From an uncultured Asticcacaulis sp. (GTDB taxonomy: Bacteria > Pseudomonadota > Alphaproteobacteria > Caulobacterales > Caulobacteraceae): a stretch of DNA of 38,122 bases. The translations under genes and the position numbers were made by a program. The stretch lies in the NCBI GenBank assembly GCA_936940865.1, contig CAKZJB010000160.1, positions 1 to 38,122 of the forward strand, written 5' to 3'. Below are positions 1-36,785 of the stretch, piece after piece. The notes under the pieces are model-generated. The model was not told the origin of the DNA. It did not search any database and saw only the letters and a program-made list of their open reading frames with translations. Positions within the stretch are counted from its first letter, which is position 1; each line of letters starts with the position of its first letter.

Positions 1-2605
1 CGCCGAAGCCCAGACCAAGCCCGCCCCCGCCGACAGCGACACCGTCGTGGTGACCGGCTTCCGCAAGAGCCTGGCCAATGCGCTCGACACCAAGAAGCGC
101 GATATCCGCGTCTCCGACAGCATTTCATCGGAGGATCTCGGCAAGTTCCCGAGCGAAAACATTGCTGAAGCCATCCAGCGCATTCCGGGCGTGCAAATGG
201 CCGACGTCAACGGCCGCGGCGCCACGATCAGCATCCGCGGCCTTGGCCCGCAATACGCGCTGACGACCGTCAACGGCCAGGATTTCAAGAGCGCCGACTT
301 CACCGACGGCTTCCGCTACGACATCATCCAGACCGAACTGGCGGCCGGAATCCAGGTCTACAAGTCGCCGACCGCCGACATGGACGCCGGCGGGCTGGCC
401 GGCACGGTCAATATCGAAACCGTCCACCCGCTCGACCGCAAGGGCCGCCAGATCGTGCTGACCGCCAAGGCGCAACAGTCGCAACTGGCCAACGGCAACG
501 CCACGCCCAAGGTCGGCGTAAGTTACGTCGACCATTTCGACGACGGCAAGCTGGGCGTCTTCCTGGGCTACAGCTACCAGGAACTGACCGACCGCGCCGA
601 CTACCTGTGGATGGATCGCTGGTATAGCTCGACCGGTTCGGCGTCGGACGGCTTCGCCAACGTCATCCCGGCGGGCTACGTGCCGCGCCGCCTCCGTTAC
701 CGCCGCATCGACCGCCAGACCCTGCGCCAGCAGGTCAACGCCGCCGTGCAATACAAGCCCATCGACGGCCTGGAACTGGGCCTGACCGGCATCTACTCCA
801 AGGACAATACGCGCTACGACGTCAACCAGCAGGTCTTCCTGTTCAGCAAGAGCGGCATTGCCGGCGTATCGGGCGACGGTTCGACCGAACTGGTGACGAC
901 ACAGTCGAACTACACGCTGGAAAACAACCGCCAGCAGGAAACCCGCAATCTGGCGACCACGGCATGGACCGGTACGGCCAAATGGACCGGCACGGAGAAC
1001 TGGACGCTGAAGGGCACGGCGCACTATTCCAAGGGCCGCGCGCACCTGACCGAGGAAGCGGCCATCCTGGGCGTTTCGATCGCCTCGTCGACGCTCGACA
1101 TCTCGAACCCCGACGACATCAAGTTCACCGTGTCGAACGACCTGTCGAGCGCCACGCCGTACGCGGCAACCAGCCTGACGCGCAACGAATTCCCCGACGG
1201 CGCGCAGCACGCGGACTATTCGGAAGAAGGCGCCGGCCAGTTCGACGCGAAGCGCGACCTCGACTTCGGCGTGCTGTCCTCGGTCAGCTTCGGGGCCAAG
1301 TACAAGCGCGAGGTCTTCTATCGCTACACGACCCGCCGCGACCTGGGCGGCAATATCGCCGCCGTCTATACGCCCGATATCGCCAGCGACGGCTATCTGG
1401 TTTCCGACTTCCTGAACGGCGACGATTCGGTGCAGCACGCCTGGATCGCGCCCAACATGAAGGCGTACGAAGCCGCGCTTGCCGCCGCCGGCATCACCGT
1501 GCCGACCGTCTGGGCGCCGGAAGACAGCTACAAGGTCACGCGCAACGTCACGGCGCTCTACGCCATGGCCAATCTCAAGGGCGAAATCCTCGGCAAGCCG
1601 TATCGCGGCGACGTCGGCGTCCGCTATGAGGACACCGGCCAGGTGGTCAATGCCAACATCACCTCGGGCAGCAATCCGCTCAACGAAAACGTCGGCAATC
1701 CGATCGGCACGCAGCGCACGCCGATGGATTATTCCAACATCCTGCCGTCGGCCAACTTCGTCGTCGACCTCGACCACGACCTCCTGCTGCGCGTCGCGGC
1801 CGCCAAGGTGCTGGTGCGCCCGATCCTCGACGCCAACAACCCGCTGGTCACCACGGTCTCGACCAGCACGCTGACCGGCGGCGGCCAGCAGTTCACCATC
1901 CAGCTCGGCCAGGCGACGCTCAAGCCCCTGACCGCGGATCAGCTCGATGTCGGACTCGAATGGTACTATGGCACGGGCAACGGCCTGAGCGTCGCCGGTT
2001 TCCTGAAGAACGTGAAGAACGGCACCTATGCCACCACGGTCTGCCCGTCTTCGTTCAACGGCACCGCGCTTTCCGGCACCGCCAGCAACTGCACCGACGC
2101 CAGCGGCAACGAATACCAGATCACCTCGGTCGCCAACGATCCGACGATCGTGAAGATCAAGGGCTTCGAGGTCAACTGGCAGCAGTCCTTCGACATGTGG
2201 CTGCCGGTCAAGGGCTTCGGCGTCATCAGCAACTACACCTACGTCACGCCGTCGAAAAACGGCACGTCGGGCTTCCACCTGGCCAACCTGTCGCAGAATA
2301 CGGTCAACGTCACCGGCTACTGGGAAAACAAGGTGTTCAGCGCCCGCCTGTCGGCCAATTACCGCAGCGCCTACAGCCAGACCAGCGCCGAAAGCTTCTT
2401 CGCGCGTGAAGGCCATACGATCGAGGGCCGGACCCAGTACGACCTGACGCTGGGCTATAATGTCAACGACCGGATGAGCCTGTCCTTCGGCGCCATCAAC
2501 ATCACCAATGCCGAGGAAAAGGCATACAAGGACATCAAGACCCGCTGGCAGATGACAAGCGTCGTCGGCTCCAGCTACTACCTGTCCCTGCAGTACAAGA
2601 TGTAA
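1..2605 (+). CDS. TonB-dependent receptor, 5' end missing
   Basis: Outer-membrane receptor that would bring a ligand too large for porins into the periplasm using TonB energy. The frame is open from base 2 to the TAA at 2603-2605, so the start and signal peptide lie outside the window. About 867 residues are visible. They begin with an Ala/Pro linker and a TonB box (DTVVVTGF), then a plug domain with IPGVQM and the SIRGLGPQYALTTVNGQ signature, then a long beta-barrel ending in an aromatic-terminated strand (YLSLQYKM). The plug pattern is that of the large TonB receptor group common in Caulobacter and Xanthomonas, often tied to plant glycans. The next genes are glycosidases, so a glycan or glycolipid head group is the likely cargo, but specificity cannot be read from the sequence. 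A GTG at 47 lies inside the TonB box and is not the start. Confidence 0.95.
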   Translation, partial: AEAQTKPAPADSDTVVVTGFRKSLANALDTKKRDIRVSDSISSEDLGKFPSENIAEAIQRIPGVQMADVNGRGATISIRGLGPQYALTTVNGQDFKSADFTDGFRYDIIQTELAAGIQVYKSPTADMDAGGLAGTVNIETVHPLDRKGRQIVLTAKAQQSQLANGNATPKVGVSYVDHFDDGKLGVFLGYSYQELTDRADYLWMDRWYSSTGSASDGFANVIPAGYVPRRLRYRRIDRQTLRQQVNAAVQYKPIDGLELGLTGIYSKDNTRYDVNQQVFLFSKSGIAGVSGDGSTELVTTQSNYTLENNRQQETRNLATTAWTGTAKWTGTENWTLKGTAHYSKGRAHLTEEAAILGVSIASSTLDISNPDDIKFTVSNDLSSATPYAATSLTRNEFPDGAQHADYSEEGAGQFDAKRDLDFGVLSSVSFGAKYKREVFYRYTTRRDLGGNIAAVYTPDIASDGYLVSDFLNGDDSVQHAWIAPNMKAYEAALAAAGITVPTVWAPEDSYKVTRNVTALYAMANLKGEILGKPYRGDVGVRYEDTGQVVNANITSGSNPLNENVGNPIGTQRTPMDYSNILPSANFVVDLDHDLLLRVAAAKVLVRPILDANNPLVTTVSTSTLTGGGQQFTIQLGQATLKPLTADQLDVGLEWYYGTGNGLSVAGFLKNVKNGTYATTVCPSSFNGTALSGTASNCTDASGNEYQITSVANDPTIVKIKGFEVNWQQSFDMWLPVKGFGVISNYTYVTPSKNGTSGFHLANLSQNTVNVTGYWENKVFSARLSANYRSAYSQTSAESFFAREGHTIEGRTQYDLTLGYNVNDRMSLSFGAINITNAEEKAYKDIKTRWQMTSVVGSSYYLSLQYKM

Positions 2606-2722
2606 CGCCAACGGCGAGTGGCTTTGACCCGGTCGCCATTGGCGAGCGCGAGGAGCCATGCGGCGTCTGGGCTGAAAACCTTATGCCGACGGCCATTTTT
2701 TGACCGTTGGCATAATGGCCCT

Positions 2723-2768: not shown

Positions 2769-2782
2769 GGAATATATATTTC
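2769..2782. promoter_or_regulatory. Weak IolR-type site (GGAA-TATATA-TTTC)
   Basis: One mismatch from GGAA-N6-TTCC, the motif known for RpiR-family IolR proteins. It lies 21 bases upstream of the candidate promoter for the nagX-GH89-GH2 operon. It sits in an A+T-rich block, so chance is a real possibility. Confidence 0.35.
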
Positions 2783-2831: not shown

Positions 2832-2932
2832 TAATGTCCTGAGTTGGTTCCAAAATCGCCGCGGGGATGCGATATTGGTCGCATTCACGCCCGACCACGT
2901 CTCCTGACCCGTTCTCATTCCGGACGGGAACT

Positions 2933-2964
2933 GGCCGCCGCAACCCTGGGCGGCGGCCCTTTTT
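2933..2964 (+). terminator. Intrinsic-terminator-like hairpin in the leader of the nagX-like gene
   Basis: Perfect 9-bp stem GGCCGCCGC (2933-2941) / GCGGCGGCC (2950-2958) with an 8-base loop, followed by CTTTTTG. It lies downstream of the candidate promoter at 2803-2831 and upstream of the start codon at 3014. Either it ends read-through from the TonB receptor or it attenuates the operon. Confidence 0.65.
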
Positions 2965-3013
2965 GTCCCCGCCCGGCCTTCGGGCAAGAAAGCACGAACC
3001 GCATAGATCGGCC

Positions 3014-4129
3014 ATGAGCAAACCCCGTTTCCAATCGCTTGATGTCTTTCGCGGCCTGACGATCTGCCTGATGATCGTGGTCAATACGTCGGGCGCCGGC
3101 GCCGATCCCTTTCCGCTGCTCAGCCACGCCAAGTGGTTCGGCCTGACCATCGCCGATCTCGTCTTTCCGGCCTTCCTGTTCGCCGTCGGCAATTCCATGA
3201 GCTTCGGCGACCCGAAAGCCCTGCCTGCGAACGCGTTTTTCCTGAAGGTGATCCGGCGCGCCGCCATCATCTTCGGGCTCGGCTACCTGATGTACTGGTT
3301 TCCGTTCTTCCATCAGGAGCCCGACGGCCACTGGGCTTTCAACGCCATCGAGCACACGCGCATCATGGGCGTGCTGCAGCGCATCGCGCTGTGCTTCCTC
3401 TTCGCCTCGATTGCCATTCGCTACCTGTCGTGGCGGGGTCTGGCGGCGTTGAGCGCCGTTCTGCTCCTCGGCTATTGGGGGGCGCTGATGGCGTTCGGCC
3501 CGCCGGGAGAGCAACTGAGCCCGCTCGGCAATATCGGCGCGCAGTTCGACCGCGCCGTGCTGGGGATCGACCACATGTACGCCAAGGGCCACGGCTATGA
3601 TCCCGAAGGCCTGTTCAGCACCCTTCCCGCCATAGCCAACGTCATCGCAGGCTTCCTGGCCGGACGCTTCATTGCGTCGCAGCCCGACCGCGCAAAAGCC
3701 GTGCGTACGCTCCTGATGGCCGGCGCCGCCGTACTGGCAGCCGGCTTTGCCTGGAGCCTCGCCTTTCCGTTGGCCAAGCGTCTGTGGACCAGCTCTTTCG
3801 CCCTGGTCAATATCGGCCTCGACCTGGCGCTGCTGGGCGCCCTGATCGCCTATGTCGAGATCGCGAAGCTGCGGTTCGGCGTCTGGTTCTGCGAGGTCTT
3901 CGGGCGCAACCCGCTGGCCATCTACCTCTTCTCCGAGCTCTTCGTCACCGGGCTGCAACTGATCAAGGCGCCGGATGGCAACGGCCTCTACGACTGGGTC
4001 GGCATTCATCTCTTCCAGGCCGCCGTCCCGGGGCCCGTGGGCGCGCTGCTGTGCGCCATCGCCTACATGCTGACCTGCTGGGCCTTCGGCTACATCCTCG
4101 ACCGCAACCGCATCCTCATCAAGATCTGA
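3014..4129 (+). CDS. nagX: NagX/HGSNAT-like membrane N-acetyltransferase (COG4299/DUF5009 type)
   Basis: Predicted multi-pass inner-membrane acyltransferase, 371 residues. The family includes bacterial NagX and human heparan-alpha-glucosaminide N-acetyltransferase, which moves an acetyl group from cytosolic acetyl-CoA across the membrane onto terminal alpha-glucosamine. Visible signatures are SLDVFRGLTICLMIVVN at residues 8-24, followed by SHAKWFGLTIADLVFP; by memory, H38 aligns with the luminal active-site histidine of the human enzyme. Many hydrophobic helices follow, and GRNPLAIYLFSELF lies near the C-terminus. The start at 3014 was chosen because the family begins just before R-x-x-SLDVFRG; residues encoded upstream look non-coding. 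No strong ribosome site precedes it. It lies 24 bases before a GntR regulator and upstream of GH89, whose substrate must be N-acetylated. Transfer to glucosamine is inferred from family and neighbours. Confidence 0.85.
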   Translation: MSKPRFQSLDVFRGLTICLMIVVNTSGAGADPFPLLSHAKWFGLTIADLVFPAFLFAVGNSMSFGDPKALPANAFFLKVIRRAAIIFGLGYLMYWFPFFHQEPDGHWAFNAIEHTRIMGVLQRIALCFLFASIAIRYLSWRGLAALSAVLLLGYWGALMAFGPPGEQLSPLGNIGAQFDRAVLGIDHMYAKGHGYDPEGLFSTLPAIANVIAGFLAGRFIASQPDRAKAVRTLLMAGAAVLAAGFAWSLAFPLAKRLWTSSFALVNIGLDLALLGALIAYVEIAKLRFGVWFCEVFGRNPLAIYLFSELFVTGLQLIKAPDGNGLYDWVGIHLFQAAVPGPVGALLCAIAYMLTCWAFGYILDRNRILIKI

Positions 4130-4153: not shown

Positions 4154-4930
4154 ATGAGCGATCTTCGTCCCCCGTTTGCCGCCGCCACCCTGTCCTTCAG
4201 CGAGATCGTCGGGCCGCTCGACAAGCAGCGCGGCGCGCCGCTCTACATGCAATTGCAGCGATCCCTGCGCGACGCCATCCATACCCAGGTGCTGGTGCCT
4301 GACGACATGATCCCGCCTGAGCGCGACCTTGCCGTGGAACTCGGCGTGTCGCGCATCACCGTGCGCAACGCCATAGAGGGCCTGGTGGCGGAGGGGCTGC
4401 TCACCCGCAAGCGCGGCGCGGGCACCTTCGTGGCGCCCCGCGTCGAAAAGAACTTCTCCCGCCTGACCTCGTTTTCCGAGGACATGGTCGCGCGCGGCCG
4501 CAACCCGCATTCCGAGTGGCTGTCGAAAAGCGAAGGCGTCGTGACGCCGGAAGAAGCCCTGTCCTTCGGCCTGTCGCCCGGCACGCGCGTCTATCGCTTC
4601 CAGCGCCTTCGCTATGCCGACGGGCTCACCATGGCGCTCGAATATTCGACCGTGCCGGCGCATTGCCTGCCCTCTCCCGACGTCGTCGAAGCCTCGCTCT
4701 ACGCGGCGCTCGAACTGACGGGATATCGTCCTGTCCGCGCGCTGCAACGCCTGCGGGCGCTCGCCTTCGACCCCGACCAGGCCGCGTTGCTGGGCGTGGA
4801 GGCCGGCGATCCCGGCCTGTTCATCGAGCGGCGCGGCTTTTCCGCCGACGGCCAGACCTGCGAACTCACCCAGTCCTATTATCGCGGCGACGCCTATGAC
4901 GTAGTGGCCGAACTCAACGACGCAAGATAA
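4154..4930 (+). CDS. GntR-family (HutC/UTRA) transcriptional regulator
   Basis: 258-residue DNA-binding regulator. Residues about 25-95 form a winged helix with the family pattern PPERDLAVELGVSRITVRNA and the wing GLLTRKRGAGTFVA. Residues about 115-250 resemble a UTRA ligand-binding domain (GTRVYRFQRLRYADGLTMALE). This is the subfamily of NagR, DasR and HutC, whose ligands are often amino-sugar phosphates or small metabolites. It sits between the acetyltransferase and the GH89 gene (9 bases to the next start), so it probably controls this operon in response to GlcNAc, GlcN or a phosphorylated form. The ligand is inference. No operator was identified with confidence; TTGG-TT-CCAA at 2844-2853 is a small inverted repeat in the operon leader worth testing. 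Confidence 0.9.
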   Translation: MSDLRPPFAAATLSFSEIVGPLDKQRGAPLYMQLQRSLRDAIHTQVLVPDDMIPPERDLAVELGVSRITVRNAIEGLVAEGLLTRKRGAGTFVAPRVEKNFSRLTSFSEDMVARGRNPHSEWLSKSEGVVTPEEALSFGLSPGTRVYRFQRLRYADGLTMALEYSTVPAHCLPSPDVVEASLYAALELTGYRPVRALQRLRALAFDPDQAALLGVEAGDPGLFIERRGFSADGQTCELTQSYYRGDAYDVVAELNDAR

Positions 4931-4939: not shown

Positions 4940-7192
4940 ATGACCGGACCGTCCCGCCGTCACCTGATCGCCGCCGCCGCGGCCCTGGCCCCCGTGTCCG
5001 CGCTGGCCAGACCCGGGCCGGCCGACGCGGCAGGACCTGTCCTGTCGCGGCTGCTGGGCCAATCCGCATCGGCCTTTCGCCTGTCGATCGACGCAAGGCC
5101 CGCCACGGCGCCGTGGTACGAAGTCACGGCAAAGGGCGGCCGGGTCGCCGTCAGGGGGTCTTCGAGCATCGCCGCTTTACGGGGGGCCTATGCTTACCTG
5201 ACCGCGACAGGCGCCGCCCAGATGAACTGGGAAGGCGACCGCATCCCATCCGGCCCCATGCCCGATTACCGCGGCAGCCGGGTCACGACACCGTTCCAGC
5301 ATCGCGTCTATCTCAATACCTGCACCTACGGCTACACCACCCCCTTCTGGGATTGGAAGCGCTGGCGGCGCGAGATCGACTGGATGGCGCTGCACGGCAT
5401 CGACATGCCGCTGGCCATGGAGGGCCAGGAATATGTCTGGCATAGGCTGTGGCAGGAACAGGGCCTGAGCCCCGCGGAACTCGACGCCTACTTCTCCGGG
5501 CCGGCGTTCACGCCCTGGCAGCGCATGGGCAATATCGAGGGTTACCAGGCGCCGCTGCCCCCCAGCTGGATCCTGAAAAAACGCGACCTGCAAAGACGAA
5601 TTCTGGGCGCCATGCGGGCCTTAGGCATGGAGCCGATCCTGCCGGCTTTCGGCGGTTATGTTCCCAAGGCCTTCGCCGACAGGCATCCGGAGGCGCGGAT
5701 TTACCGGATGCGGGCGTGGGAAGGGTTCCACGAGACATACTGGCTCGATCCGGCCGATCCGCTGTTCGCCCGGCTGGCCGGACACTTCCTCGATCTCTAC
5801 GAGGCGACCTACGGCAAGGGACGCTATTACCTGGCCGACTCATTCAACGAGATGCTGCCGCCGATCGGCGACGGCCCGGCCGTCAAGGGCGCCTATGGCG
5901 ACTCCACCGCCAATGCGGCGAAGGAGGCCGAGATCGATCCGAAGGTCAAGGCGGAACGGCTGGCCGCCTATGGCAAGCGTATCCACGATTCGATCCGGGC
6001 AAAGCGCCCTGACGCCGTCTGGGTGATGCAGGGCTGGCTGTTCGGCGCCGACCAGAAATTCTGGACCGCCGACGCCATCGCCGCCTTCCTCAAGGATGTA
6101 CCGGACAGCGGGCTGATGGTGCTCGATATCGGCAACGACCGCTATCCCAATGTCCATACGACGGCCGAGGCCTTCCACGGCAAGCAATGGATCTATGGCT
6201 ACGTCCATAACTATGGCGGCTCGAACCCGGTCTATGGCGACCTCGACTTCTACCGCCAGGACACGCCGGCGATCGCCGCCAGTCCGGCGCGCGGCAACCT
6301 GAAAGGCTTCGGCGCCTTTCCGGAGGGGCTCGACACCAATTCGGTCGTCTACGAATATCTTTATGACCTGGGCTGGTCCGGCAGGACGGGGGATCTCGGC
6401 GATTGGTTGACCAATTACACGCGCGCCCGCTACGGCCGGACCTCGCCCGAACTGGTGGCGGCCTGGCTGAAGGTGGCTGACGGTGTTTTCCGCACCCGCT
6501 ACTGGACGCCGCGCTGGTGGCATTCGACGGCGGGCGCCTACCTTTTGTGCAAGCGTCCGGACGTCGCCATGGCCGGATACGAAGGCGCGCCCGGCGATCC
6601 CGCCGCGTTGAAGGACGGCCTGTCGCGACTGCTGCGGCTTTCGCCCCAATATGCCGCCTCGCCGCTGTTCCGCTTCGACATGGTGGAATTTACCCGTCAC
6701 AGCGTCAGCCTCGATCTCGACGATCGCATCAAGGCGGCGATCGCGGCCTATCAGGCCGGCGACAAGGCGGCGGGTGACGCCGGGGCGGCCATCATCACGG
6801 CGAAGGTCACCGCGCTCGACGACCTGATGGGTGCGCAACCGTGGAGCCTCGCCACCTGGATCGCCGAGGCGCGCGCCTATGGCGACACCCCCGCCGAAAA
6901 AGCCTATTATGAAAAGAACGCCCGTGCCCAGGTCACCGTCTGGGGCGGCAGCGGCAATCTTCACGACTATGCGTCGAAGGCCTGGCAAGGGCTATATCGC
7001 GATTTCTATCTGCCACGCTGGACACTGTTGTTCGACGCCTTGCGGGACTCGCCGGGTACACCGTTCGACCAGACGGCGGCAACCGCGAGAATCGTCGCCT
7101 GGGAAAACGACTGGGTGGCGTCGACGACTCCCGTCGTCCGCCGCGTCCCCGACGACCCGCTGAAAGCCGCCGCGGCCCTGCTAAAGATATAA
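4940..7192 (+). CDS. Alpha-N-acetylglucosaminidase, GH89 (NAGLU family)
   Basis: Exported enzyme predicted to remove terminal alpha-linked GlcNAc; 750 residues, a usual family length. The N-terminus has a twin-arginine-like signal (MTGPSRRHLIAAAAAL, ending near PADA). The small N-terminal domain is followed by the NAGLU core: WDWKRWRREIDWMALHGI, then GHs' typical PLAMEGQEYVW and ILPAFGGYVP. Both catalytic glutamates are recognisable: E304 in SFNEMLPP (acid/base) and E462 in FPEGLDTNSVVYEYLYDLGW (nucleophile), by homology to human E316 and E446. It lies between the GntR regulator and a GH2 gene in one plus-strand operon. GH89 acts on N-acetylated, not free, glucosamine, which gives the upstream acetyltransferase a job. 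The natural substrate is not shown by the sequence; heparan-like, mucin-type or inositol-glycan alpha-GlcNAc are all possible. Confidence 0.95.
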   Translation: MTGPSRRHLIAAAAALAPVSALARPGPADAAGPVLSRLLGQSASAFRLSIDARPATAPWYEVTAKGGRVAVRGSSSIAALRGAYAYLTATGAAQMNWEGDRIPSGPMPDYRGSRVTTPFQHRVYLNTCTYGYTTPFWDWKRWRREIDWMALHGIDMPLAMEGQEYVWHRLWQEQGLSPAELDAYFSGPAFTPWQRMGNIEGYQAPLPPSWILKKRDLQRRILGAMRALGMEPILPAFGGYVPKAFADRHPEARIYRMRAWEGFHETYWLDPADPLFARLAGHFLDLYEATYGKGRYYLADSFNEMLPPIGDGPAVKGAYGDSTANAAKEAEIDPKVKAERLAAYGKRIHDSIRAKRPDAVWVMQGWLFGADQKFWTADAIAAFLKDVPDSGLMVLDIGNDRYPNVHTTAEAFHGKQWIYGYVHNYGGSNPVYGDLDFYRQDTPAIAASPARGNLKGFGAFPEGLDTNSVVYEYLYDLGWSGRTGDLGDWLTNYTRARYGRTSPELVAAWLKVADGVFRTRYWTPRWWHSTAGAYLLCKRPDVAMAGYEGAPGDPAALKDGLSRLLRLSPQYAASPLFRFDMVEFTRHSVSLDLDDRIKAAIAAYQAGDKAAGDAGAAIITAKVTALDDLMGAQPWSLATWIAEARAYGDTPAEKAYYEKNARAQVTVWGGSGNLHDYASKAWQGLYRDFYLPRWTLLFDALRDSPGTPFDQTAATARIVAWENDWVASTTPVVRRVPDDPLKAAAALLKI

Positions 7193-7211
7193 ATAAAAAG
7201 AGGAAATGCCC

Positions 7212-19992: not shown

Positions 19993-20053
19993 GCCGGCTC
20001 CCTGCCCCGGAACTCCCGCCCTCACCGGCAAAAATTCCACGTTGACATCATTT

Positions 20054-21650: not shown

Positions 21651-21660
21651 GAGGTCCGGC

Positions 21661-28979: not shown

Positions 28980-29942
28980 TTATTTGACTTCGGAAATCCG
29001 TGAAGCCTGGTTGAGGTTGTCTTTGGTGATCAGTACGGGAGTCAGGCTTTGCGAGGCGATCGCCTTCTTGTCGCGCAGGGCGCCGACGACCTGGCGCAGC
29101 GCCGTGCGGATCTGTTCGCCCGGATTCTGCTCGACGGTCGCGGCCATATCGCCGGCCTTGATGCGGGCCAGGGCTTCCGGGATGGCGTCGAAGCCGAGGA
29201 CACGAATCTGCTGCGGCGTGAAGCCCGCTCCATGGATGGCTTCGAGCGCGCCCATGGCCATGTCGTCATTGAGGCACAGGATGGCGTCCGGGTGCTGCCC
29301 GCCCATCGAGGTCAGGATGTTCTGCGTCACGGTCAGCGCCTGGTCGCGCTTGGAATTGGCCGTCTGCTCGGCGACGATGAAATAGGATGCGCCGCCCGCG
29401 GCGAAGCCTTCGTGCACGCCCTTGACACGCTCGATCGACGACGAGCTGCCGGGATCGTTGGTAATGACAACGATCTTCGCGCCCTTGGGGAAGGTCTTGA
29501 CCACCCACTCGGCCATGGCGCGGCCGCCGGCGACATTGTCGGCGCCGAAATGCGGCACGGGATGCTTGGCGTTTTCGATATGGCGGTCGACCGAGACCAC
29601 GATGACACCGTCATCGGCCAGCTTGTCGGTTTCGGAAGCCAGCGCCTTGGAGTCGGTCGGCGCGATGATGACCGCGCCCACGCCCTGGACGCCGGCGGCA
29701 TCGAGGTCGGAGACCTGCTTCGATGAATTGTTCTGGCCGTCCAGCACCTGGACTTTCACGCCCAGCTTCTGCGCCTCGTCTTCCAGGTCGCGGCGCATGG
29801 CGACGAAGAAGGGCTGGGACAGGTCGCTGAAACTGACGACGATGTCCTGCGACCCGGTATTTCCACCCTTCGAACAGCCGGCCAGGGCCGCCAGCCCGAA
29901 GGCGGCGCCGGTGGCGAGAAGCGCTCGGCGATTAAGCGACAT
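28980..29942 (-). CDS. ibpA: Inositol-binding periplasmic (lipo)protein
   Basis: 320-residue substrate-binding protein of the ribose/galactose type (peripla_BP_4). It begins MSLNRRALLATGAAFGLAAL and has a lipobox ending at Cys23 (LAGC), so it may be a membrane-anchored lipoprotein. Core motifs: VSFSDLSQPFFVAM, VGAVIIAPTDSKALASE, VVSVDRHIE, ILCLNDDMAMGALEAI, VLGFDAIPEAL and GDMAATVEQNPGEQ. The start at 29942 follows GGAGGAAATC; the in-frame ATG at 29954 overlaps that ribosome site. First gene of ibpA-iatA-iatP-GH92-GH92. The Caulobacter homologue binds myo-inositol; identity here rests on family resemblance and the iol context. Confidence 0.9.
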   Translation of the reverse strand: MSLNRRALLATGAAFGLAALAGCSKGGNTGSQDIVVSFSDLSQPFFVAMRRDLEDEAQKLGVKVQVLDGQNNSSKQVSDLDAAGVQGVGAVIIAPTDSKALASETDKLADDGVIVVSVDRHIENAKHPVPHFGADNVAGGRAMAEWVVKTFPKGAKIVVITNDPGSSSSIERVKGVHEGFAAGGASYFIVAEQTANSKRDQALTVTQNILTSMGGQHPDAILCLNDDMAMGALEAIHGAGFTPQQIRVLGFDAIPEALARIKAGDMAATVEQNPGEQIRTALRQVVGALRDKKAIASQSLTPVLITKDNLNQASRISEVK

Positions 29943-29998
29943 GATTTCCTCCATCGATGAGGCGTCACGCGCCTCGATGATCCTGTTTTTTGATATTT

Positions 29999-30064: not shown

Positions 30065-31573
30065 CTAATTCATCGTCGGAATAACGAAGCTCTGATCGGG
30101 GGCTACAGCACCACCCGCCACGCTTGCCGGCCAGCGCTGGGTGACCGTCTTGACCTTGGTGTAGAAGCGCACGCCGTCCGTGCCGTACTGGTTGAGGTCG
30201 CCGAAGCCCGAGCGCTTCCAGCCGCCGAAGCTGTGATAGGCGACGGGCACGGGAATGGGCACATTTATACCGACCATGCCGACGTCGACCCGGTCGGCGA
30301 ACTGCCGCGCATAGTCGCCGTTGCGCGTGAAGATCGCGACGCCGTTGCCGTAAGCGTGGCGACTGGGCAGGTCGAGCGCCGCCTCGAAACTGTCGGCGCG
30401 GACCATTTGCAGTACGGGCCCGAAGATTTCGTCCTGGTAGGACTTCATGTCGGGCGTCACGCGGTCGAACAGGGTCGGCCCCAGGAAATAGCCGCTCTCG
30501 TGGCCTTGCAAGGCAAAGCCGCGGCCGTCGCGCACCAGTTCGGCGCCCTCGTCGACGCCCATCTGGATATAGGATTCGATGCGCGCCTTGTGCGCCGCGG
30601 ACACAACAGGGCCGTACTGGGCTTCGGCATCGGTCGAGATGCCGACACGCAAACCGTCGATAGAGGCCAGAAGGCGGTCGCGCAGGGCGTCGGCCGTCTT
30701 GTCACCAACCGGCACGACGACCGGCAGCGCCATGCAGCGCTCGCCGGCCGAGCCATAGGCCGCCCCCATGATGTCGTTGACGGCCTGGTCGAGATCGGCG
30801 TCGGGCAGGACGATGCCATGGTTCTTGGCGCCGCCCATGCACTGCATGCGCTTGCCGTTTTGCGCGCCTTTGGCGTAGACGTACTGCGCAATATCGGACG
30901 AACCGACGAAGCTGACCGCGCGGATCGCCGGGTGGTCCAGAATGGCATCGACGACCGTCTTGTCGCCTTGGACGACATTGAGCACGCCCGCCGGCAGGCC
31001 CGCCTCGATCAGCAGTTCCGCCAGGCGCACTGGCACGGACGGATCGCGCTCCGATGGCTTCAGGATGAAGGCGTTGCCGCAGGCCAGCGCCGGGGCGAAC
31101 ATCCACATGGGGATCATGGCGGGAAAGTTGAACGGCGTGATGCCGGCGACGACGCCGAGCGGCTGGCGCATCGAATAGACATCGATGCCGGGACCGGCGC
31201 CCTGGGTGTATTCGCCCTTCAAGAGGTGCGGGATGCCGCAGGCGAATTCTACGACTTCCAGCCCGCGCTGGATATCGCCTTTCGCATCGGCGATGACCTT
31301 GCCGTGTTCCGATGACAGGAGATAGGCCAGCGAGTCCATATCGCGTTCGAGCAACCGCTTGAACTCGAACAGGACGCGGGCGCGGCGCTGCGGATTGGTC
31401 GCGGCCCAGCCGATCTGCGCGGCGGCCGCGTTGCACACGGCTTCGTCGACAAGCGCCGCATCGCCCAGTTCGACGATGGCCTGGACGGTCCCGGTATTGG
31501 GGTCGTAGACGTCCGATGTCCGCACCGTCTTGCTTAAGGGTTGCCCGCCGACAAAGTGGCCGATAGTTCGCAT
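30065..31573 (-). CDS. iolA: Methylmalonate/malonate-semialdehyde dehydrogenase (CoA-acylating)
   Basis: 502-residue aldehyde dehydrogenase that converts malonate semialdehyde to acetyl-CoA, the last step of inositol catabolism; the same family (MmsA) acts in valine breakdown. Seen: ITPFNFPAMIPMWMFAPALA with N149, LKPSERDPSVP with K172, KRMQCMGGAKNHGIVLPDAD, where the usual general-base Glu is absent as expected for this family, and catalytic C280 in GSAGERCMALPV. GAGG precedes the ATG. It is separated from ibpA by 122 bases with its own promoter and is divergent from GH115. The site in its promoter matches the IolR motif, favouring the inositol role over valine. Confidence 0.95.
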   Translation of the reverse strand: MRTIGHFVGGQPLSKTVRTSDVYDPNTGTVQAIVELGDAALVDEAVCNAAAAQIGWAATNPQRRARVLFEFKRLLERDMDSLAYLLSSEHGKVIADAKGDIQRGLEVVEFACGIPHLLKGEYTQGAGPGIDVYSMRQPLGVVAGITPFNFPAMIPMWMFAPALACGNAFILKPSERDPSVPVRLAELLIEAGLPAGVLNVVQGDKTVVDAILDHPAIRAVSFVGSSDIAQYVYAKGAQNGKRMQCMGGAKNHGIVLPDADLDQAVNDIMGAAYGSAGERCMALPVVVPVGDKTADALRDRLLASIDGLRVGISTDAEAQYGPVVSAAHKARIESYIQMGVDEGAELVRDGRGFALQGHESGYFLGPTLFDRVTPDMKSYQDEIFGPVLQMVRADSFEAALDLPSRHAYGNGVAIFTRNGDYARQFADRVDVGMVGINVPIPVPVAYHSFGGWKRSGFGDLNQYGTDGVRFYTKVKTVTQRWPASVAGGAVAPDQSFVIPTMN

Positions 31574-31618: not shown

Positions 31619-31651
31619 GGAATAAATATTTCATCTTGTTGTCATTTGCAA
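31619..31651 (-). promoter_or_regulatory. iolA promoter with overlapping IolR-type operator
   Basis: GGAA-TAAATA-TTTC at 31619-31632 is one mismatch from GGAA-N6-TTCC. On the minus strand -35 TTGCAA (31646-31651) is 17 bases from TATTTA (31623-31628), the centre of the operator. This repeats the geometry at iolC. The site is also just upstream of the GH115 promoter. Confidence 0.65.
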
Positions 31652-31666
31652 TGTTCGTTTTATAGT
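31639..31666 (+). promoter_or_regulatory. Promoter of the GH115-phosphatase-GntR operon
   Basis: TTGTCA (31639-31644), 16 bases, TATAGT (31661-31666). It overlaps the iolA promoter on the other strand, so a repressor at 31619-31632 could affect both directions. Confidence 0.55.
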
Positions 31667-31757
31667 GCGCGCGACTTCGGCGCGGACATGCCCGGAAAAA
31701 TACGGTTATAAGAAGAGCGGCGGCGCCCGGCCGCTCCGGAATCAGGGACAAAATGCC

Positions 31758-34526
31758 ATGAGGCCTGTTCTTTGCTTTGTATCGGTGCTGTTCGCCACCG
31801 TGATGACCGCCCTGCCCGCCTGTGCGGATGAAACGGCACTTTACGATGGACACACCGTGGCGGGCATCGTCCATGACGATCGCGGCGCCGGCAAGACCCT
31901 GTCCCTGGCGGCGGATTTGCTGTCGCGTGACCTGACAGCCCTGACGGGCCAGGCGCCCGGGGCCTGCACGAAGGTGTGCATCGTCGTCGGGCTTTACGAT
32001 TCGCCTGTCGTCAAAAAGATCGCAAAAATCGGAAATGTCGACCTCTCCGACCTCAAGGGTCAATGGGAGGTCTATCGTCGCGCCGTGATCAAGAGCCGCG
32101 GCAAGACCTACGTCCTGATCGCCGGTTCTGACCGCCGCGGCGCCGTCTTCGGCACGGTCGACCTGTCGCGGCAGCTGGGCGTTTCGCCGTGGGAATGGTG
32201 GGCCGACGTCACGCCGCGCCACCACGACCGGCTGGCTATCTCCGACGACACGGTCACGTCGAAAACGCCGTCGGTCAAATATCGCGGCATCTTCATCAAT
32301 GACGAGGACTGGGGGCTGGAGCCCTGGGCGGCGAAAACTTTCGATCCCAAGACCGGCAATATCGGCCCGAAGACCTATGCGAAGGTCTTCGAGCTGATGT
32401 GGCGGCTGAAGGCCAATACCCTGTGGCCGGCCATGCACTCGGTCTCGACGCCGTTCTACGGCAATCCCGGCAATGCGCCGCTGGCGGCCGACTATGCCGT
32501 CATCGTCGGCACGTCGCACGCCGAGCCGATGATGCGCAACAACCTGCGCGAATGGGACGAAACGAAGAAGGGCCCCTTCGACTTCACGCGCAACAAGACG
32601 GCCATCCTCGACTACTGGCGCCAGCGCGCGGACCAGGTCAAGGGCTACGACAATATCTATACGGTGGGCCTGCGCGGCATCCACGACGGTCCGATGCAGG
32701 GCGCGTCGACCATGGAGGAACGCAAGACCATCCTGCAAAACGTCATCGGCCTGCAACGCGATATCCTCAGTCAGGTTTACAAAAAGCCCGCCGCCGAAGT
32801 GCCCCAGGTCTACGTCGCCTATCACGAGCTCCAGGAAGCCTACGACGCCGGGCTGAAGGTCCCCGACGACGTGACGCTGATGTGGGCCGACGACAATTAC
32901 GGCTATATCCGCCGTTTTGCCGCGCCGGAGGAAAGAAACCGTTCCGGCGGGTCGGGCGTCTATTATCACCTGTCCTACTGGGGGCGGCCGCACGACTATC
33001 TGTGGCTGGGGACGACGCACCCGGCCCTGATCCGTGAGGAGATGGGCCGCGCCTGGGATCTCAACGCGCGCCGTATCTGGATCGCCAATTCCGGCGACAT
33101 CAAGCCGATCGAATATCTGACGCAGTATTTCCTCGACCTCGCCTTCGACGCCGGCACCTTCAAGGAAACACCGCGCGAGCATCTCAAGGGCTTCATGGCC
33201 GAAACCTTCGGGCCTGACCATGCCGACGAGTTGGCCGGACTGATGCTGCGCTATTACGACCTCGCGTTTGCGCGCCGGCCGGAATTCATGGGCTTCGGCC
33301 AGACCGAGTGGGTCACGCAGAACCGCCATACCGATTTCGTCCAGTCGGACGGCGAGGAGGCGCAGGCGCGTATCGCCGCCTATCAGGCGATCCAGGCCCA
33401 GGCGGAGAAAATCGCCGCCGGCATTCCCGCCGACCGCCGCGATGCGTTTTACGAGCTGGTCCTCTATCCGGTGCGCGCCAGCGCGGAGCTGAATACGCGC
33501 ATCCTGAAGCTCGACCTGGCCGACCTCTATGCCGGCCAGCAGCGGGCGTCGGCCAACGCCTATGTCGATCAGGCCAAAGCCGCGCATGACGGGCTGGTGC
33601 GCGATACCGCTGCCTTCAATGCGCTGCAGAACGGCAAGTGGCAGGGCATGATGGACATGCAGCCGCGCCGCCTGCCCGTCTTCGACGAGCCCGTCTGGCC
33701 GCACTGGTCGGAGTCGAAGAAGGACGGCTGCGACACCGCCCTGTTCGGCCAGTGGTTCAACGACCACAACACCCTGCCCTTCGTTGAAGGCCGCGCCGAA
33801 ACACGGCCGCTGACGCTTTTCGGCTATCGCGCAACCGGCCAGAACTGGTCTCTGAAACAGGGCGCGCAAGGCTTTGCCCTGTCCCAGACCTCGGGGACGC
33901 TGGACGCGGGGAACGCCTATGAACAGCGCCTGACGATCCGTTATGACGGCCGCGAATCATCGGGGGATCACACACTCACGATCGAATGCGGCGGCCAGTC
34001 CCTGCCCGTCTATGTCCGCATCCTGCCGGGCCTGCCTCCAGCCACAGCCATCGAAGACAACCGTATCGTCACCCTGCCGGCCGCGGCGATTGATCCGGGT
34101 ACGGACTGGCAAAAGATCGGGGGGCTGGGCTCGACCGGCGCGGTCCTCCGTGCCCGGCTGGATCTCTCCGGCCAGGGCGCGCCGGCGGTTTACACCTTTG
34201 CCACCTCGACCGAGGTCGGCGGGGCGCTGAAGATTATCGCCCTGCCCACGCATCCGCTCGATCCGGCCAAGGGCGTACGCATCAACATCCAGCTCGACGG
34301 CGGCGCGCCGCAGATGCTCGACCTGTCGACGCTTGGCCGCAGCGACGTCTGGCGGCAGAACGTCCTGACCAACACGGCTGTCGCCACTGTTCCCCTCCGC
34401 CTGCTCAAGGCTGGATCGCACGAACTCAAAATCTATCCGCTCGACCCGGGCGTGACGCTCGACCGCATCGACATCAACCTCGACCGCGCGCCGGGCCATT
34501 ATGGCGCCGAGGAGCCCCAGCCATGA
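31758..34526 (+). CDS. GH115 alpha-glucuronidase
   Basis: 922-residue exported enzyme predicted to release alpha-linked glucuronic acid; characterised members remove alpha-1,2-GlcA or 4-O-methyl-GlcA from xylan. The start at 31758 has AGGGA upstream and begins a signal peptide (MRPVLCFVSVLFATVMTALP, ending ACA). Family segments: LIAGSDRRGAVFGTVDLSRQ, LGVSPWEWWADVTP, KYRGIFINDEDWGLEPWA, MWRLKANTLWPAMHSVSTPF, GTSHAEPMMRNNLREWD, VGLRGIHDGPMQG, MWADDNYGYIRRF and YYHLSYWGRPHDYLWL, then the C-terminal Ig-like region. First gene of an operon with a phosphatase and a GntR regulator. Next to inositol genes, GlcA-alpha-1,2-inositol is a candidate target as well as glucuronoxylan (inference). Confidence 0.95.
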   Translation: MRPVLCFVSVLFATVMTALPACADETALYDGHTVAGIVHDDRGAGKTLSLAADLLSRDLTALTGQAPGACTKVCIVVGLYDSPVVKKIAKIGNVDLSDLKGQWEVYRRAVIKSRGKTYVLIAGSDRRGAVFGTVDLSRQLGVSPWEWWADVTPRHHDRLAISDDTVTSKTPSVKYRGIFINDEDWGLEPWAAKTFDPKTGNIGPKTYAKVFELMWRLKANTLWPAMHSVSTPFYGNPGNAPLAADYAVIVGTSHAEPMMRNNLREWDETKKGPFDFTRNKTAILDYWRQRADQVKGYDNIYTVGLRGIHDGPMQGASTMEERKTILQNVIGLQRDILSQVYKKPAAEVPQVYVAYHELQEAYDAGLKVPDDVTLMWADDNYGYIRRFAAPEERNRSGGSGVYYHLSYWGRPHDYLWLGTTHPALIREEMGRAWDLNARRIWIANSGDIKPIEYLTQYFLDLAFDAGTFKETPREHLKGFMAETFGPDHADELAGLMLRYYDLAFARRPEFMGFGQTEWVTQNRHTDFVQSDGEEAQARIAAYQAIQAQAEKIAAGIPADRRDAFYELVLYPVRASAELNTRILKLDLADLYAGQQRASANAYVDQAKAAHDGLVRDTAAFNALQNGKWQGMMDMQPRRLPVFDEPVWPHWSESKKDGCDTALFGQWFNDHNTLPFVEGRAETRPLTLFGYRATGQNWSLKQGAQGFALSQTSGTLDAGNAYEQRLTIRYDGRESSGDHTLTIECGGQSLPVYVRILPGLPPATAIEDNRIVTLPAAAIDPGTDWQKIGGLGSTGAVLRARLDLSGQGAPAVYTFATSTEVGGALKIIALPTHPLDPAKGVRINIQLDGGAPQMLDLSTLGRSDVWRQNVLTNTAVATVPLRLLKAGSHELKIYPLDPGVTLDRIDINLDRAPGHYGAEEPQP

Positions 34527-36019
34527 AGACGTTTCTCTTTTTGCTCGCTCTGCTGCCCGCCACGGCAATGGCCGCCGACGCCACGAAGAACCCGCAGTTC
34601 GTCGCCGGCCGGGCTGCGCTCGAACAGGCGCTTGACCGCCCCCAACCCGGCCGGCACGCCCGTAACATCATCCTGTTCATCGGCGATGGCATGGGCATCA
34701 ATTCGGTGACCGCAGGACGCATCTTCGCCGGCCAGGCGCGCGGGCTCGACGGCGCCAGCTACAAGCTGTCCTTCGAGACCCTGCCCTTTGGCGGCTTCTC
34801 CAAGACCTATTCCGCCGACAAGCTGGTGACCGACTCGGCCAACGGCATTTCGGCGATCATGACGGGGGTCAAGACGATCAATGCCGCCATCGGGGTCGAC
34901 GACACGGTCAGGACCAAGGACTGCCAAAGCGCCCTTTCCGCCCGCATCGAGACCCTGGCCGAACAGGCCAAGCGCTCGGGCCGCGCCGCCGGCGTCGTCA
35001 CCACGGCAGGCATCACCGACGCGACGCCGGCCGGCGCCTATGGTCACGTGCCGTTCCGCGGCTGGCGCGCCGACGCCGATCTGCCGCCGGACGCGGTCAA
35101 GGCCGGCTGCGTCGACCTGGCGCGGCAACTGGTCGAGGCGCCCGATGCCGTGCGCATGGATCTGGCCTTCGGCGGCGACCTGCAGGACTTCGTGCCCGTG
35201 GGCACCGGTCCCGGCAAACGCGCCGACGGCCGCGACCTGACGAAAACCTGGCTGGCGCGGCCCGGTGCGCGTTACGTCACGGACGCGGGGGCGCTATCGT
35301 CGCTGGCGCCCAGGGGCGGCCCGGTACTGGGGCTGTTCGCGTCCGGCGACCTGCCGTCGCCCGTCGACACCGACCTGCACAAGAACGTGCCGACGCTGGT
35401 AGAAATGACGTCGAAGGCGATCGACATCCTGGCCGCGAAAAAGACCGGCTACTTCCTGCTGGTCGAATCGGCTTCGATCGACAAATGGCACCACGCCAAC
35501 AACGCCTACCGCGCCCTGACCGATGTCGACGAGCTGTCCAAGGCCGTGCGCGCCGCCATGGACAAGACCGATCCGAACGATACCCTGATCATCGTCACCG
35601 CCGATCACAGCCACGGCCTGGTGATTTCGGCGGGATCGTCGCGCGAAGAGCCGATCACCGGGCTGGTGCGCAACCACGGCGTCAACCTTCCCGACGGCAA
35701 TGGTAATCCCCGCACGACCCTGTCCTACGCCACCGGTCCCGGCGGCCCCAGGGACGGCGTCGCCCGCCCCATCCCCGACGAAGCCGCCGCCACGTCACCC
35801 GACTATCGCCAGCCGGCCCTGGTCTATATGGAAAGCGCCCAGCACGCCGGCGAGGACGTGCCGGTCTATTCGCGCGGCCCCGATTCCGACCTGCTGACCG
35901 GGACTTTCGAGTCGAGCTACATCTATCAGGTCATGGCGCATGCCTTTTCGCCGGCTGATGGCCCCAGGCTTGCAAAGCCGGTGAAAACACACAGGCGGAG
36001 GCACGCCCATGGACGATAG
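34523..36019 (+). CDS. Periplasmic alkaline phosphatase, PhoA family
   Basis: 498-residue exported phosphomonoesterase. Signal peptide at residues 1-18 (MKTFLFLLALLPATAMAA). The metal and catalytic residues of E. coli PhoA are recognisable: D55 in FIGDGMG, nucleophile S105 in TDSANGIS, E315/D320/H324 in VESASIDKWHH (same spacing as E322/D327/H331) and D361/H362 in TADHSHG. The C-terminal part has AQHAGEDVPVYSRGP. The start overlaps the GH115 stop (ATGA), so the two are translated together. That coupling suggests it removes phosphate from the same glycan, e.g. inositol phosphate, rather than serving general phosphate supply; no Pho box was seen in front of it. It overlaps the next gene by 11 bases. 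Confidence 0.93.
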   Translation: MKTFLFLLALLPATAMAADATKNPQFVAGRAALEQALDRPQPGRHARNIILFIGDGMGINSVTAGRIFAGQARGLDGASYKLSFETLPFGGFSKTYSADKLVTDSANGISAIMTGVKTINAAIGVDDTVRTKDCQSALSARIETLAEQAKRSGRAAGVVTTAGITDATPAGAYGHVPFRGWRADADLPPDAVKAGCVDLARQLVEAPDAVRMDLAFGGDLQDFVPVGTGPGKRADGRDLTKTWLARPGARYVTDAGALSSLAPRGGPVLGLFASGDLPSPVDTDLHKNVPTLVEMTSKAIDILAAKKTGYFLLVESASIDKWHHANNAYRALTDVDELSKAVRAAMDKTDPNDTLIIVTADHSHGLVISAGSSREEPITGLVRNHGVNLPDGNGNPRTTLSYATGPGGPRDGVARPIPDEAAATSPDYRQPALVYMESAQHAGEDVPVYSRGPDSDLLTGTFESSYIYQVMAHAFSPADGPRLAKPVKTHRRRHAHGR

Positions 36020-36785
36020 TCCCGTAAAGCCCGTACAGGTGGCGCGCGACCGCCGCGCCTACCAGGACATCGGCAAGCACCTGATCGGCCGCATCCGCTC
36101 GGGTGAGTTCGGCGCCACCGGCCGCCTGCCGCCCGAACGGGATCTCGCCCTGTGGTACGATGTCGGCCGCACCGTCATCCGCGACGCCCTGGTCATGCTG
36201 GAAGTCAAGGGTCTGGTCGAGCCGCGCCAGGGCTCGGGCATCTACATCACCAAGCGCGCCTACGACGCAGTCATCGCCGACGAGGCCCGCGTCGAACGCC
36301 CGGCGCCGTGGGACGCCCTGCCGCCGGCCGGCCCGTTCGAGCTGCTGCAGGCTAGACAATGGCTGGAAAGCCACATCGCGCGCCTGGCGGCACACAACGC
36401 CAGCGACGAGGATATGGAGACTATCGAGAAGGCGTACGAGGACCACCGCCGCGCCCATTACGGCGAGCCCAAGGAAAACTACGACATCCGCTTCCACATG
36501 GCGATCGCCCAGGCGACGCAGAACAGTGAGCTGGCGCTTCTGGTCAACCAGCTCTGGCACCGCCGCGACAACAATCCCCTATGGAAGAGCCTGCAGGCGC
36601 ACATCCCCGATCCGCGCTACCGCGACAAGTGGGTACACGACCACGACCAGATCGTCGAAGCCCTGCGCCGCCGCGACGGCGACGGGGCGTTCGTCGCCAT
36701 GTGGAACCATATCGAGAACGTGAAATCGTTCCTGCTGCAGTCGAACGCCTTCAGCGAAGACGGAAGGCCGTCAGGCAAGGGATAG
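36009..36785 (+). CDS. GntR-family regulator, FadR/FCD subfamily, UxuR/ExuR-like
   Basis: 258-residue regulator. N-terminal winged helix at about 17-85 (GRLPPERDLALWYDVGRTVI, then RDALVMLEVKGLVEPRQGSG). C-terminal all-helical FCD ligand domain at about 105-240, with RQWLESHIARLAA, DIRFHMAIAQATQNSEL and HDHDQIVEALRRRDGDGAF providing the usual Asp/His metal-binding residues. The sequence style is that of the UxuR/ExuR uronate regulators. Position after GH115 supports glucuronate or a GlcA-containing fragment as inducer (inference). It overlaps the phosphatase gene by 11 bases and ends 5 bases before the convergent kinase gene. Confidence 0.9.
   Translation: MDDSPVKPVQVARDRRAYQDIGKHLIGRIRSGEFGATGRLPPERDLALWYDVGRTVIRDALVMLEVKGLVEPRQGSGIYITKRAYDAVIADEARVERPAPWDALPPAGPFELLQARQWLESHIARLAAHNASDEDMETIEKAYEDHRRAHYGEPKENYDIRFHMAIAQATQNSELALLVNQLWHRRDNNPLWKSLQAHIPDPRYRDKWVHDHDQIVEALRRRDGDGAFVAMWNHIENVKSFLLQSNAFSEDGRPSGKG

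Follow-up and report, generated by a model that had tools for sequence, protein, structure and literature searches.

We analyzed a stretch of 38,122 nucleotides from an uncultured Asticcacaulis sp. (contig CAKZJB010000160.1, below called the window), which holds genes for glycoside hydrolases (GH), an exported phosphatase, an inositol importer and the inositol (iol) catabolic pathway. Our results suggest that this locus lets Asticcacaulis harvest the head groups of plant-type glycosyl inositol phosphorylceramides (GIPCs), a reading to which we give a probability of roughly 0.6. The GIPC core in print is GlcNAc(α1-4)GlcA(α1-2)Ins-P-Cer (N-acetylglucosamine, glucuronic acid, inositol, phosphate and ceramide), with arabinose, galactose or mannose extensions, and the authors caution that part of the arabinose and galactose in GIPC preparations may be cell-wall contamination. 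In agreement, GlcA-inositol phosphorylceramide bears mannose or glucosamine (GlcN), acetylated or not, according to an excerpt of PMC9113257. The bonds of such a head group are matched one by one by the predicted activities of GH43/GH51 (in relatives), GH2, GH92, HGSNAT/GH89 and GH115. Comparison between genomes favours as target an inositol-phosphate-linked glycan with GlcA and GlcN(Ac); plant GIPC heads are the glycan of this type on record. Support for the GIPC interpretation is partial, and other genomes contribute more to it than the genome of the window does.

The window is the whole of contig C160 in a genome of 5.07 Mb and 245 contigs (G000 in our comparisons); since it is a single entire contig, both of its ends are assembly edges. 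Genes were called with Pfam profiles over the 28 reading frames of the window and with the curated cut-offs of NCBIfam, and signal peptides were judged by eye. All genes named in a preliminary description of this DNA were present, namely TonB receptors, acetyltransferase, GH89, GH2, two GH92, GH115, phosphatase, importer and iol genes. The transmembrane glucosamine N-acetyltransferase of the HGSNAT/NagX family (2867..4129, plus strand; start possibly 3014) passed the cut-off of the Pfam family HGSNAT_cat (PF07786, 33.2 bits, cut-off 22). It had been described as NagX-type, but it failed the NCBIfam NagX equivalog (142.5 bits, cut-off 480), and therefore we assign it to the HGSNAT family and not to NagX itself. 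It is followed on the same strand by a GntR-UTRA regulator (4154..4930; PF07702, PF00392), probably NagR-like, by a GH89 alpha-N-acetylglucosaminidase (4940..7192) with all three NAGLU domains (PF12971, PF05089 with 404 bits, PF12972), and by a GH2 protein, probably a beta-galactosidase (7206..9686; PF02836, PF18565, PF16355). Both hydrolases have a Tat-like signal by eye. The GH115 alpha-glucuronidase (31665..34526, plus strand, likely start 31758; PF15979, 421 bits) has a Sec signal. Behind it, also on the plus strand, are an exported PhoA-type alkaline phosphatase (34523..36019; PF00245, 340 bits), whose top PDB matches were animal alkaline phosphatases, and a GntR-FCD regulator (36009..36785; PF07729, PF00392), presumably with a uronate-type sensor. 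As judged by eye, the extracytoplasmic enzymes of the window start with signal-like sequences.

The iol set of the window is complete (IolG, IolE, IolD, IolB, IolC, the aldolase step and methylmalonate-semialdehyde dehydrogenase, MMSDH), each above its curated NCBIfam cut-off. On the minus strand lie IolB, 5-deoxy-glucuronate isomerase (13502..14305; TIGR04378, 331 bits, cut-off 205), IolE, inosose dehydratase (14302..15207; TIGR04379, 400 bits, cut-off 290), IolD (15204..17039; TIGR04377, 913 bits, cut-off 715), the IolC kinase fused to the aldolase step (17052..19013; NF047869, 768 bits, cut-off 600; DUF2090, PF09863) and an RpiR-family regulator, IolR-like by our assignment (19123..20040; PF01418, PF01380). 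IolG, inositol 2-dehydrogenase, is on the plus strand (20246..21229, start at about 20246; TIGR04380, 414 bits, cut-off 355). Further along the minus strand there is IolA/MMSDH, the CoA-acylating semialdehyde dehydrogenase (30065..31573; TIGR01722, 633 bits, cut-off 448.5), then the myo-inositol-binding protein IbpA (28980..29954), the inositol ATP-binding cassette (ABC) ATPase IatA (27448..28965; PF00005, two stretches) and the ABC permease IatP (26452..27432; PF02653). IbpA reached 437 bits to PDB 4irx, which we take to be the Caulobacter inositol-binding protein, and 243 bits to the next chain; the adjoining genes carry ABC and permease domains, and by this combination we recognised the importer. 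NCBIfam gave no inositol-specific match to the binding protein. Two GH92 alpha-mannosidases follow on the same strand, one at 24212..26449 (PF07971, 516 bits), whose ATG at 26449 is 2 bp beyond the stop of IatP, and a secreted one at 22035..24233 (start 24215 possible; PF07971, 368 bits). Caulobacter inositol catabolism consists of iol genes and an IbpA/IatAP importer. The window resembles it in the full pathway and in its IbpA, and differs in having GH92 genes behind the permease and a GH115-phosphatase unit that shares the iolA promoter.

Two TonB-dependent receptors are encoded on the plus strand. The first (2..2605; PF00593 with 116 bits, PF07715) has lost its 5' end at the contig edge, and relatives of the second (10242..13352; PF00593, PF07715) adjoin GH115/GH89 in Asticcacaulis. 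The units on this strand are thus TonB receptor 1; HGSNAT, GntR-UTRA, GH89 and GH2; TonB receptor 2; iolG; and GH115, alkaline phosphatase and GntR-FCD. Those on the minus strand are iolC-D-E-B; RpiR; and iolA, ibpA, iatA, iatP and both GH92 genes. The window shares TonB receptors, periplasmic exo-glycosidases, dedicated regulators and an inner-membrane importer with TonB-receptor loci and with the polysaccharide utilisation loci (PULs) of Bacteroidota. It differs from them in the predicted sphingolipid head target and in that a phosphatase and inositol catabolism belong to the set. No SusD domain was detected by Pfam in the 28 reading frames; the window thus has no SusD-like partner of the SusC/SusD type, yet it is PUL-like through its TonB receptors.

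We observed four operator-like sites in the window: GGAATATATATTTC (2769..2782, plus strand), probably of RpiR/IolR type, 84 bp ahead of the HGSNAT-GntR-GH89-GH2 unit; GGAATAAAAATTCC (19059..19072, minus strand) upstream of iolC; GGAATAAAAATTTC (20133..20146, plus strand) between the RpiR gene and iolG, conserved in the Asticcacaulis genomes G003, G007 and G008; and GGAATAAATATTTC (31619..31632, plus strand) within the iolA/GH115 divergent promoter, which is about 90 bp long, or about 185 bp with the GH115 start at 31758. The pattern GGAATAAAWATTYC was derived from the iolC, iolG and iolA/GH115 sites, and the HGSNAT site played no part in it. With at most one mismatch it had five matches genome-wide, four of them in the window (iolC, iolG, iolA/GH115 and the HGSNAT unit), while the reversed control pattern had three matches genome-wide. 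The site GGAATAAATATTTC is retained with 2 mismatches in G003, G007 and G008, and one divergent promoter with an operator-like site lies between iolA and GH115 in four genomes. In nine relatives all exact matches but one, in G023 (C19), lay at iol loci or close to them; those of G016 and G022 were some kb off iolG, ahead of a long gene, which in G016 is a TonB receptor. In G011, where iol is elsewhere, a one-mismatch site precedes a TonB receptor in the GH115/GH89 locus. Presumably these are binding sites of the RpiR protein. The operator-like motif links the iol, GH115 and GH89 units of the window. The GH89/acetyltransferase genes (plus strand) and the iol operons (minus strand) are separate transcription units, which corrects the preliminary description.

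We compared 25 Asticcacaulis genomes, including G000, with the IolC-aldolase fusion as the marker for iol. GH89 was present in 19 and the IolC fusion in 10 of them; GH89 occurred in 10 of 10 iol-bearing genomes and in 9 of the 15 without iol. Of the 19 GH89-bearing genomes, 13 had a GH115 no farther than 25 kb from GH89, irrespective of iol (G000, G003, G006, G007, G008, G011, G016, G018, G019, G021, G022, G023, G024), in several gene orders. No GH115 was found within 25 kb of GH89 in G002, G004, G009, G013, G014 and G015, in some of which the genes are on separate contigs. The HGSNAT gene adjoined GH89 or was one gene off in all 17 GH89 loci considered (window included; G002 and G004 left out). 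In five of the ten iol-bearing genomes (G000, G003, G007, G008, G016) iol was in the same 40 kb as GH115/GH89. The phosphatases at GH115 loci are swapped for non-homologues: an alkaline phosphatase follows GH115 in G000, G007 and G008, a histidine-phosphatase-superfamily gene comes after GH115 and GH92 in G018 and G021, and metallophosphoesterases occur as well. In G018, which has no IolC fusion, genes for MIOX (myo-inositol oxygenase) and a histidine phosphatase are beside GH92-GH115 (L125, 2707-3528 and 6378-7583), an arrangement that would suit oxidation of inositol to glucuronate in place of the iol route. The loci of relatives also hold GH43, GH51, GH29 and GH31.

In four of the five genomes with unlinked iol (G006, G011, G019, G023) GH92 is located between iolG and the importer genes. 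This placement would fit a harvest of fungal GIPCs or glycosylphosphatidylinositols (GPIs), that is mannosyl- and GlcN-inositol phosphoceramides, in which GH115 serves a separate substrate: in the window GH92 immediately follows the inositol permease, relatives also have it beside the importer genes, among them four with GH115 distant or on another contig, and HGSNAT, GH89, GH92 and iol would be enough for GlcN-inositol glycans. Such a harvest leaves unexplained both the linkage of GH115 to GH89 in three groups and the operator in the GH115 promoter, and we regard it as quite unlikely.

The preliminary description had proposed to count co-occurrence beyond chance; such counts come from the linkage tests and control stretches given here and from the operator matches. 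The control set consisted of 34 stretches at other Asticcacaulis GH115 copies (xylan-type and second copies), of which 26 were about 20 kb and eight were 4.4 to 19.4 kb, owing to contig ends or a shorter stretch requested. These 34 contained no GH89, GH92, PI-PLC (phosphatidylinositol-specific phospholipase C), MIOX, core iol or alkaline phosphatase. HGSNAT was seen in one (35% identity, at the edge of L174) and an IatA-like ATPase in two; control stretch L177 also contains a window-like GH115 with GH43.

Linkage in the neighbourhood of GH115 exceeds chance in 199 Flavobacteriaceae genomes, evenly drawn around G125. The counts left out 4 PI-PLC and 4 GH115 matches below 80 bits, as well as MIOX matches below 100 bits, three of which exceed the family cut-off. 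PI-PLC was within 5 kb of GH115 in 4 of 14 cases (expected 0.05), GH89 within 10 kb in 5 of 17 (expected 0.1), and longer-matching MIOX within 25 kb in 7 of 12 (expected 0.26), where the expectations assume random placement in 4 Mb. The Poisson p-values (approximately 1e-8 to 2e-7) are too small, because the expectation ignores the kinship of the genomes. The sample includes three genomes whose loci had been known beforehand (G125 at its centre, G126 and G128); with these removed, the linked fractions were 3/11 for PI-PLC, 3/15 for GH89 and 5/10 for MIOX. The other 17 MIOX genes of the 199 genomes had no GH115 within 25 kb, and one of them (G143) was within 10 kb of PI-PLC. We rejected a general linkage of MIOX to GH115, as the linked genes were only among the longer-matching 12 of 29, a split chosen after the scores were known.

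GH115, GH89 and HGSNAT occur together in Asticcacaulis, Sphingomonas and Flavobacterium, in varying gene order. We named the best 80 of 180 confirmed GH115 matches as loci, with flanks of often about 10 kb per side, sometimes ended by the contig, and counted PI-PLC, MIOX, iol, IbpA or IatP as inositol markers. Of these best 80 of 180, 11 had HGSNAT/GH89 together with an inositol marker, 15 had HGSNAT/GH89 only and 20 an inositol marker only. A related, Bacteroidota-dominated GH115 clade comprises 37 named loci, two of which (L070 and L080) belong to Alteromonadaceae; loci were assigned to it by the tree and by the best match of each, near-identical sequences being merged in the tree. These 37 contain metallophosphoesterase (33), GH92 (31, many at 24-39% identity), PI-PLC of the PI-PLC-C1 family (24), HGSNAT (14), MIOX (13) and GH89 (9), and 27 have PI-PLC or MIOX. 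The Flavobacterium operon L083 runs GH28, GH92, GH43, GH89, HGSNAT, PI-PLC, GH115, metallophosphoesterase, hybrid regulator, major facilitator superfamily transporter, KduI/IolB-type isomerase and short-chain dehydrogenase. Nine loci (L055, L059, L061, L062, L063, L072, L077, L092, L093) combine PI-PLC, GH115, phosphoesterase, MIOX and a symporter, and their stretches gave no GH89 or HGSNAT match.

Among 12 Sphingomonas GH115 loci, HGSNAT and GH89 were found in 10, GH2 in 8, GH29 in 5 and GH92 in 2. Sphingomonas-type GlcA-ceramide glycolipids carry GlcN, galactose and mannose on GlcA. Breakdown of these bacterial lipids would call for identical monosaccharides, and the GH115-GH89-HGSNAT set is present in Sphingomonas itself. 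Such lipids are without inositol, which leaves the PI-PLC, MIOX and iol links unexplained, and we consider this substrate very improbable.

Several observations weigh against GIPC heads as the target. The gene set recurs in three groups, and many Bacteroidota add PI-PLC, phosphoesterase or MIOX, but iol is away from GH115/GH89 in 5 of 10 iol-bearing Asticcacaulis (G006, G011, G019, G022, G023); the preliminary description had held that unlinked iol genes in relatives would speak against it, and this is the case in half of these genomes. Furthermore, 9 of the 19 GH89-bearing genomes have no IolC fusion, the GH89 gene of G022 is broken into two pieces and that of G019 is interrupted by an in-frame stop codon, and the window is without GH43, which all 16 Asticcacaulis GH115 regions compared contain. 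A site of the HGSNAT type was not seen ahead of HGSNAT in the scanned regions of ten relatives. Operator control of GH115/GH89 loci in iol-unlinked genomes was not retained, as one site only, that of G011, was found. The probed inositol genes were missing from the Sphingomonas loci, save a 34% IatA-like ATPase in L024, and 10 of the 14 Flavobacteriaceae PI-PLC genes were not beside GH115. Finally, 34 of the named loci (best 80 of 180) had neither HGSNAT/GH89 nor an inositol marker in their stretch, among them loci of Massilia, Rhizomicrobium and several Asticcacaulis.

These 34 partner-less loci, together with iol being unlinked or absent in many relatives and with three different regulators within the window, would also be expected if the neighbourhood were a loose or chance one, made up of an alpha-GlcNAc glycan cluster, an enzyme for uronate or xylan side chains and a common catabolic operon for inositol or phytate. 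The linkage tests and controls, the GH115/iolA divergent promoter with an operator-like site common to four genomes, and the recurrence across phyla with PI-PLC and MIOX argue against such an assembly, and we find it improbable.

The phosphate bonds are a further weak point. A candidate had been claimed for every one of them; this claim goes beyond what we observed in the window, a member of a phosphomonoesterase family and no obvious phosphodiesterase. G000 gave no match to PI-PLC-C1 (PF16670 type), the phospholipase family that was searched, so we dropped a PI-PLC partner in this genome and assigned no phosphodiester-cleaving candidate. PI-PLC-C1 is present in 14 of the 25 Asticcacaulis genomes (not in G000, G007, G008 and 8 others), and by coordinates none of these genes is within 25 kb of any GH115 in the 25 genomes.

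The relationships of the GH115 protein also count against GIPC heads. The nearest solved enzyme is BtGH115A (PDB 5by3, 43% identity), and in a tree made by a quick method with SH-aLRT support the clade of the window GH115 is sister to the BtGH115A clade (SH-aLRT 94), with the PI-PLC-linked GH115 clade as the next branch. An excerpt of PMC13059095 gives BtGH115A as the sole GH115 reported active on arabinogalactan. Because of this sister clade, the specificity of the window GH115 cannot be read from the tree. Identity was 37% to the GH115 of L083 and 34-37% to xylan enzymes; the characterised xylan enzymes SdeAgu115A and BoAgu115A are in a separate group of 18 rows, with the window GH115 outside, and we therefore rejected xylan as its target. 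BtGH115A is thus like the window GH115 in identity and in its neighbouring clade. It differs in context: the Bacteroides relative L096 (16.5 kb), which groups with BtGH115A, has no detected GH89, HGSNAT or inositol genes, and a rhamnogalacturonan lyase and GH88 are on its flanks.

This kinship with BtGH115A suits a breakdown of GPI-anchored arabinogalactan-proteins, in which GH115 would act on arabinogalactan alpha-GlcA, GH2, GH43, GH51 and GH29 on side chains, and the Man-GlcN-inositol of the GPI anchor would be handled by GH92, HGSNAT, GH89, phosphatase and iol. GH43, GH51, GH29 and GH31 in the loci of relatives fit as well, and an excerpt of PMC11036162 reports Maribacter GH115 proteins on arabinogalactan, including one that was likewise detected on every other sugar tested. 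On the other side, operon L083 has no recognised endo-galactanase. In 10 of 12 Sphingomonas loci GH115 and HGSNAT-GH89 occur without GH92, and these therefore could not open a mannose-capped GPI glycan. In the nine loci that combine PI-PLC, GH115, phosphoesterase and MIOX, neither GH89 nor HGSNAT is visible, and L096 is flanked by the rhamnogalacturonan lyase and GH88. Maribacter L092 was checked for arabinogalactan-type enzymes, and the four genes before its PI-PLC were a divergent GH115-like gene, GH92, GH29 and GH3. We judge arabinogalactan-protein breakdown unlikely.

The divergent GH115-like protein of approximately 690 amino acids (about 55-70 bits to PF15979) was seen in L092 (666-2717) and in other marine Flavobacteriaceae, with its gene about 6-13 kb from the PI-PLC-linked GH115. 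It is possibly a new family related to GH115.

Under the GIPC reading, the substrate would most likely be free inositol-(phosphate-)glycans freed by plant or fungal phospholipases, and free head groups would account for a phosphatase without PI-PLC in G000. Free inositol phosphate glycans occur in uninfected plants, and the reference list of PMC11496612 includes a rose-cell oligosaccharide with mannopyranosyl-(1-4)-alpha-glucuronopyranosyl-(1-2)-myo-inositol. The glycan may be imported through the TonB receptors and trimmed by periplasmic exo-enzymes from outside inward. GH2 would take off galactose and GH92 mannose, after which the HGSNAT-type protein would acetylate terminal GlcN across the inner membrane and GH89 would remove the GlcNAc. 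GH115 is predicted to split alpha-1,2-linked GlcA from inositol, the phosphatase to remove phosphate, and IbpA/IatAP to bring inositol to the iol pathway. An IolR-like RpiR repressor probably couples the iol, GH115-phosphatase and HGSNAT-GH89-GH2 units. In those Bacteroidota relatives that encounter intact lipid, PI-PLC would act once GH115 has freed O-2 of inositol. The substrate, the order of cleavage, the repressor binding and every enzyme specificity are our deductions from gene families, their linkage and the placement of the motif, which we observed directly.

We see an even chance that the loci together form an undescribed catabolic system for plant or algal GIPC heads, spread over at least two phyla with varied gene orders and phosphatases. 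In this system the head would be trimmed to GlcA-inositol, GH115 would free the 2-hydroxyl of inositol, and only then would PI-PLC or phosphatases release inositol for iol or MIOX; the window set would be one inositol-responsive regulon.

Human lysosomal HGSNAT acetylates terminal alpha-GlcN in heparan sulfate breakdown. The window resembles the human HGSNAT/NAGLU pair in the acetylation of GlcN followed by GH89-type hydrolysis of GlcNAc α1-4 GlcA; it differs in that an alpha- and not a beta-glucuronidase comes next, beside inositol genes. Cleavage of GlcNAc α1-4 GlcA by a Bacteroides GH89 is given in an excerpt of PMC8225759.

Among the matches listed in open-access PubMed Central, preprints being outside this scope, we found no bacterial GIPC utilisation locus, and the preliminary description, too, knew of none. 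The closest of these works, as far as their excerpts go, were on a Botrytis phospholipase C (PMC11496612) and on arabinogalactan in Maribacter (PMC11036162). The Botrytis enzyme likewise represents a microbial attack on plant GIPC that frees inositol phosphate glycans; it differs in being fungal and in cleaving the lipid only, head-group catabolism not being described in the excerpt of PMC11496612. A review states, in the part cited here, that GIPC digestion is not yet clarified (PMC8268314). Bacterial breakdown of these abundant plant membrane sphingolipid heads thus appears undescribed. If true, it would account for the recycling of the GIPC pool by plant-associated and aquatic bacteria, it would provide enzymes for sequencing GIPC glycans, and it predicts a new GH115 activity, on GlcA α1-2 inositol.

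Some minor features were also observed. A hybrid sensor kinase/response regulator gene (36791-38122, minus strand) is cut off by the contig end. Between iolG and the GH92 genes (21348-22032) there are a HigB-type toxin gene (PF09907, 84 bits) and a small downstream gene without a Pfam match, HigA-like by eye; the palindromes TTCCCATATTGGGAA/TTCCCAATATGGGAA at 21293 and 21325 precede the toxin gene. An interspersed repeat of about 50-75 bp directly upstream of iolG (approximately 20160-20245) has 13 more matches in the genome at 77-90% identity, and we set it aside as irrelevant to the reading of the locus; a second short stretch of the iolG-region query (343-374) matches two other places in the genome. 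In relatives, tryptophan-halogenase-family genes (one member scanned) recur in L110 (18211-19722) and in 10 other Asticcacaulis regions of GH115 or TonB receptor 2. In L108 (3163-10298) the neighbours of iolG encode a GH4 hydrolase, a PfkB kinase, a transporter of the amino-acid-permease type and a TonB receptor; together they might process other inositol glycosides in the cytosol, and G022 has open reading frames of lengths similar to this set.

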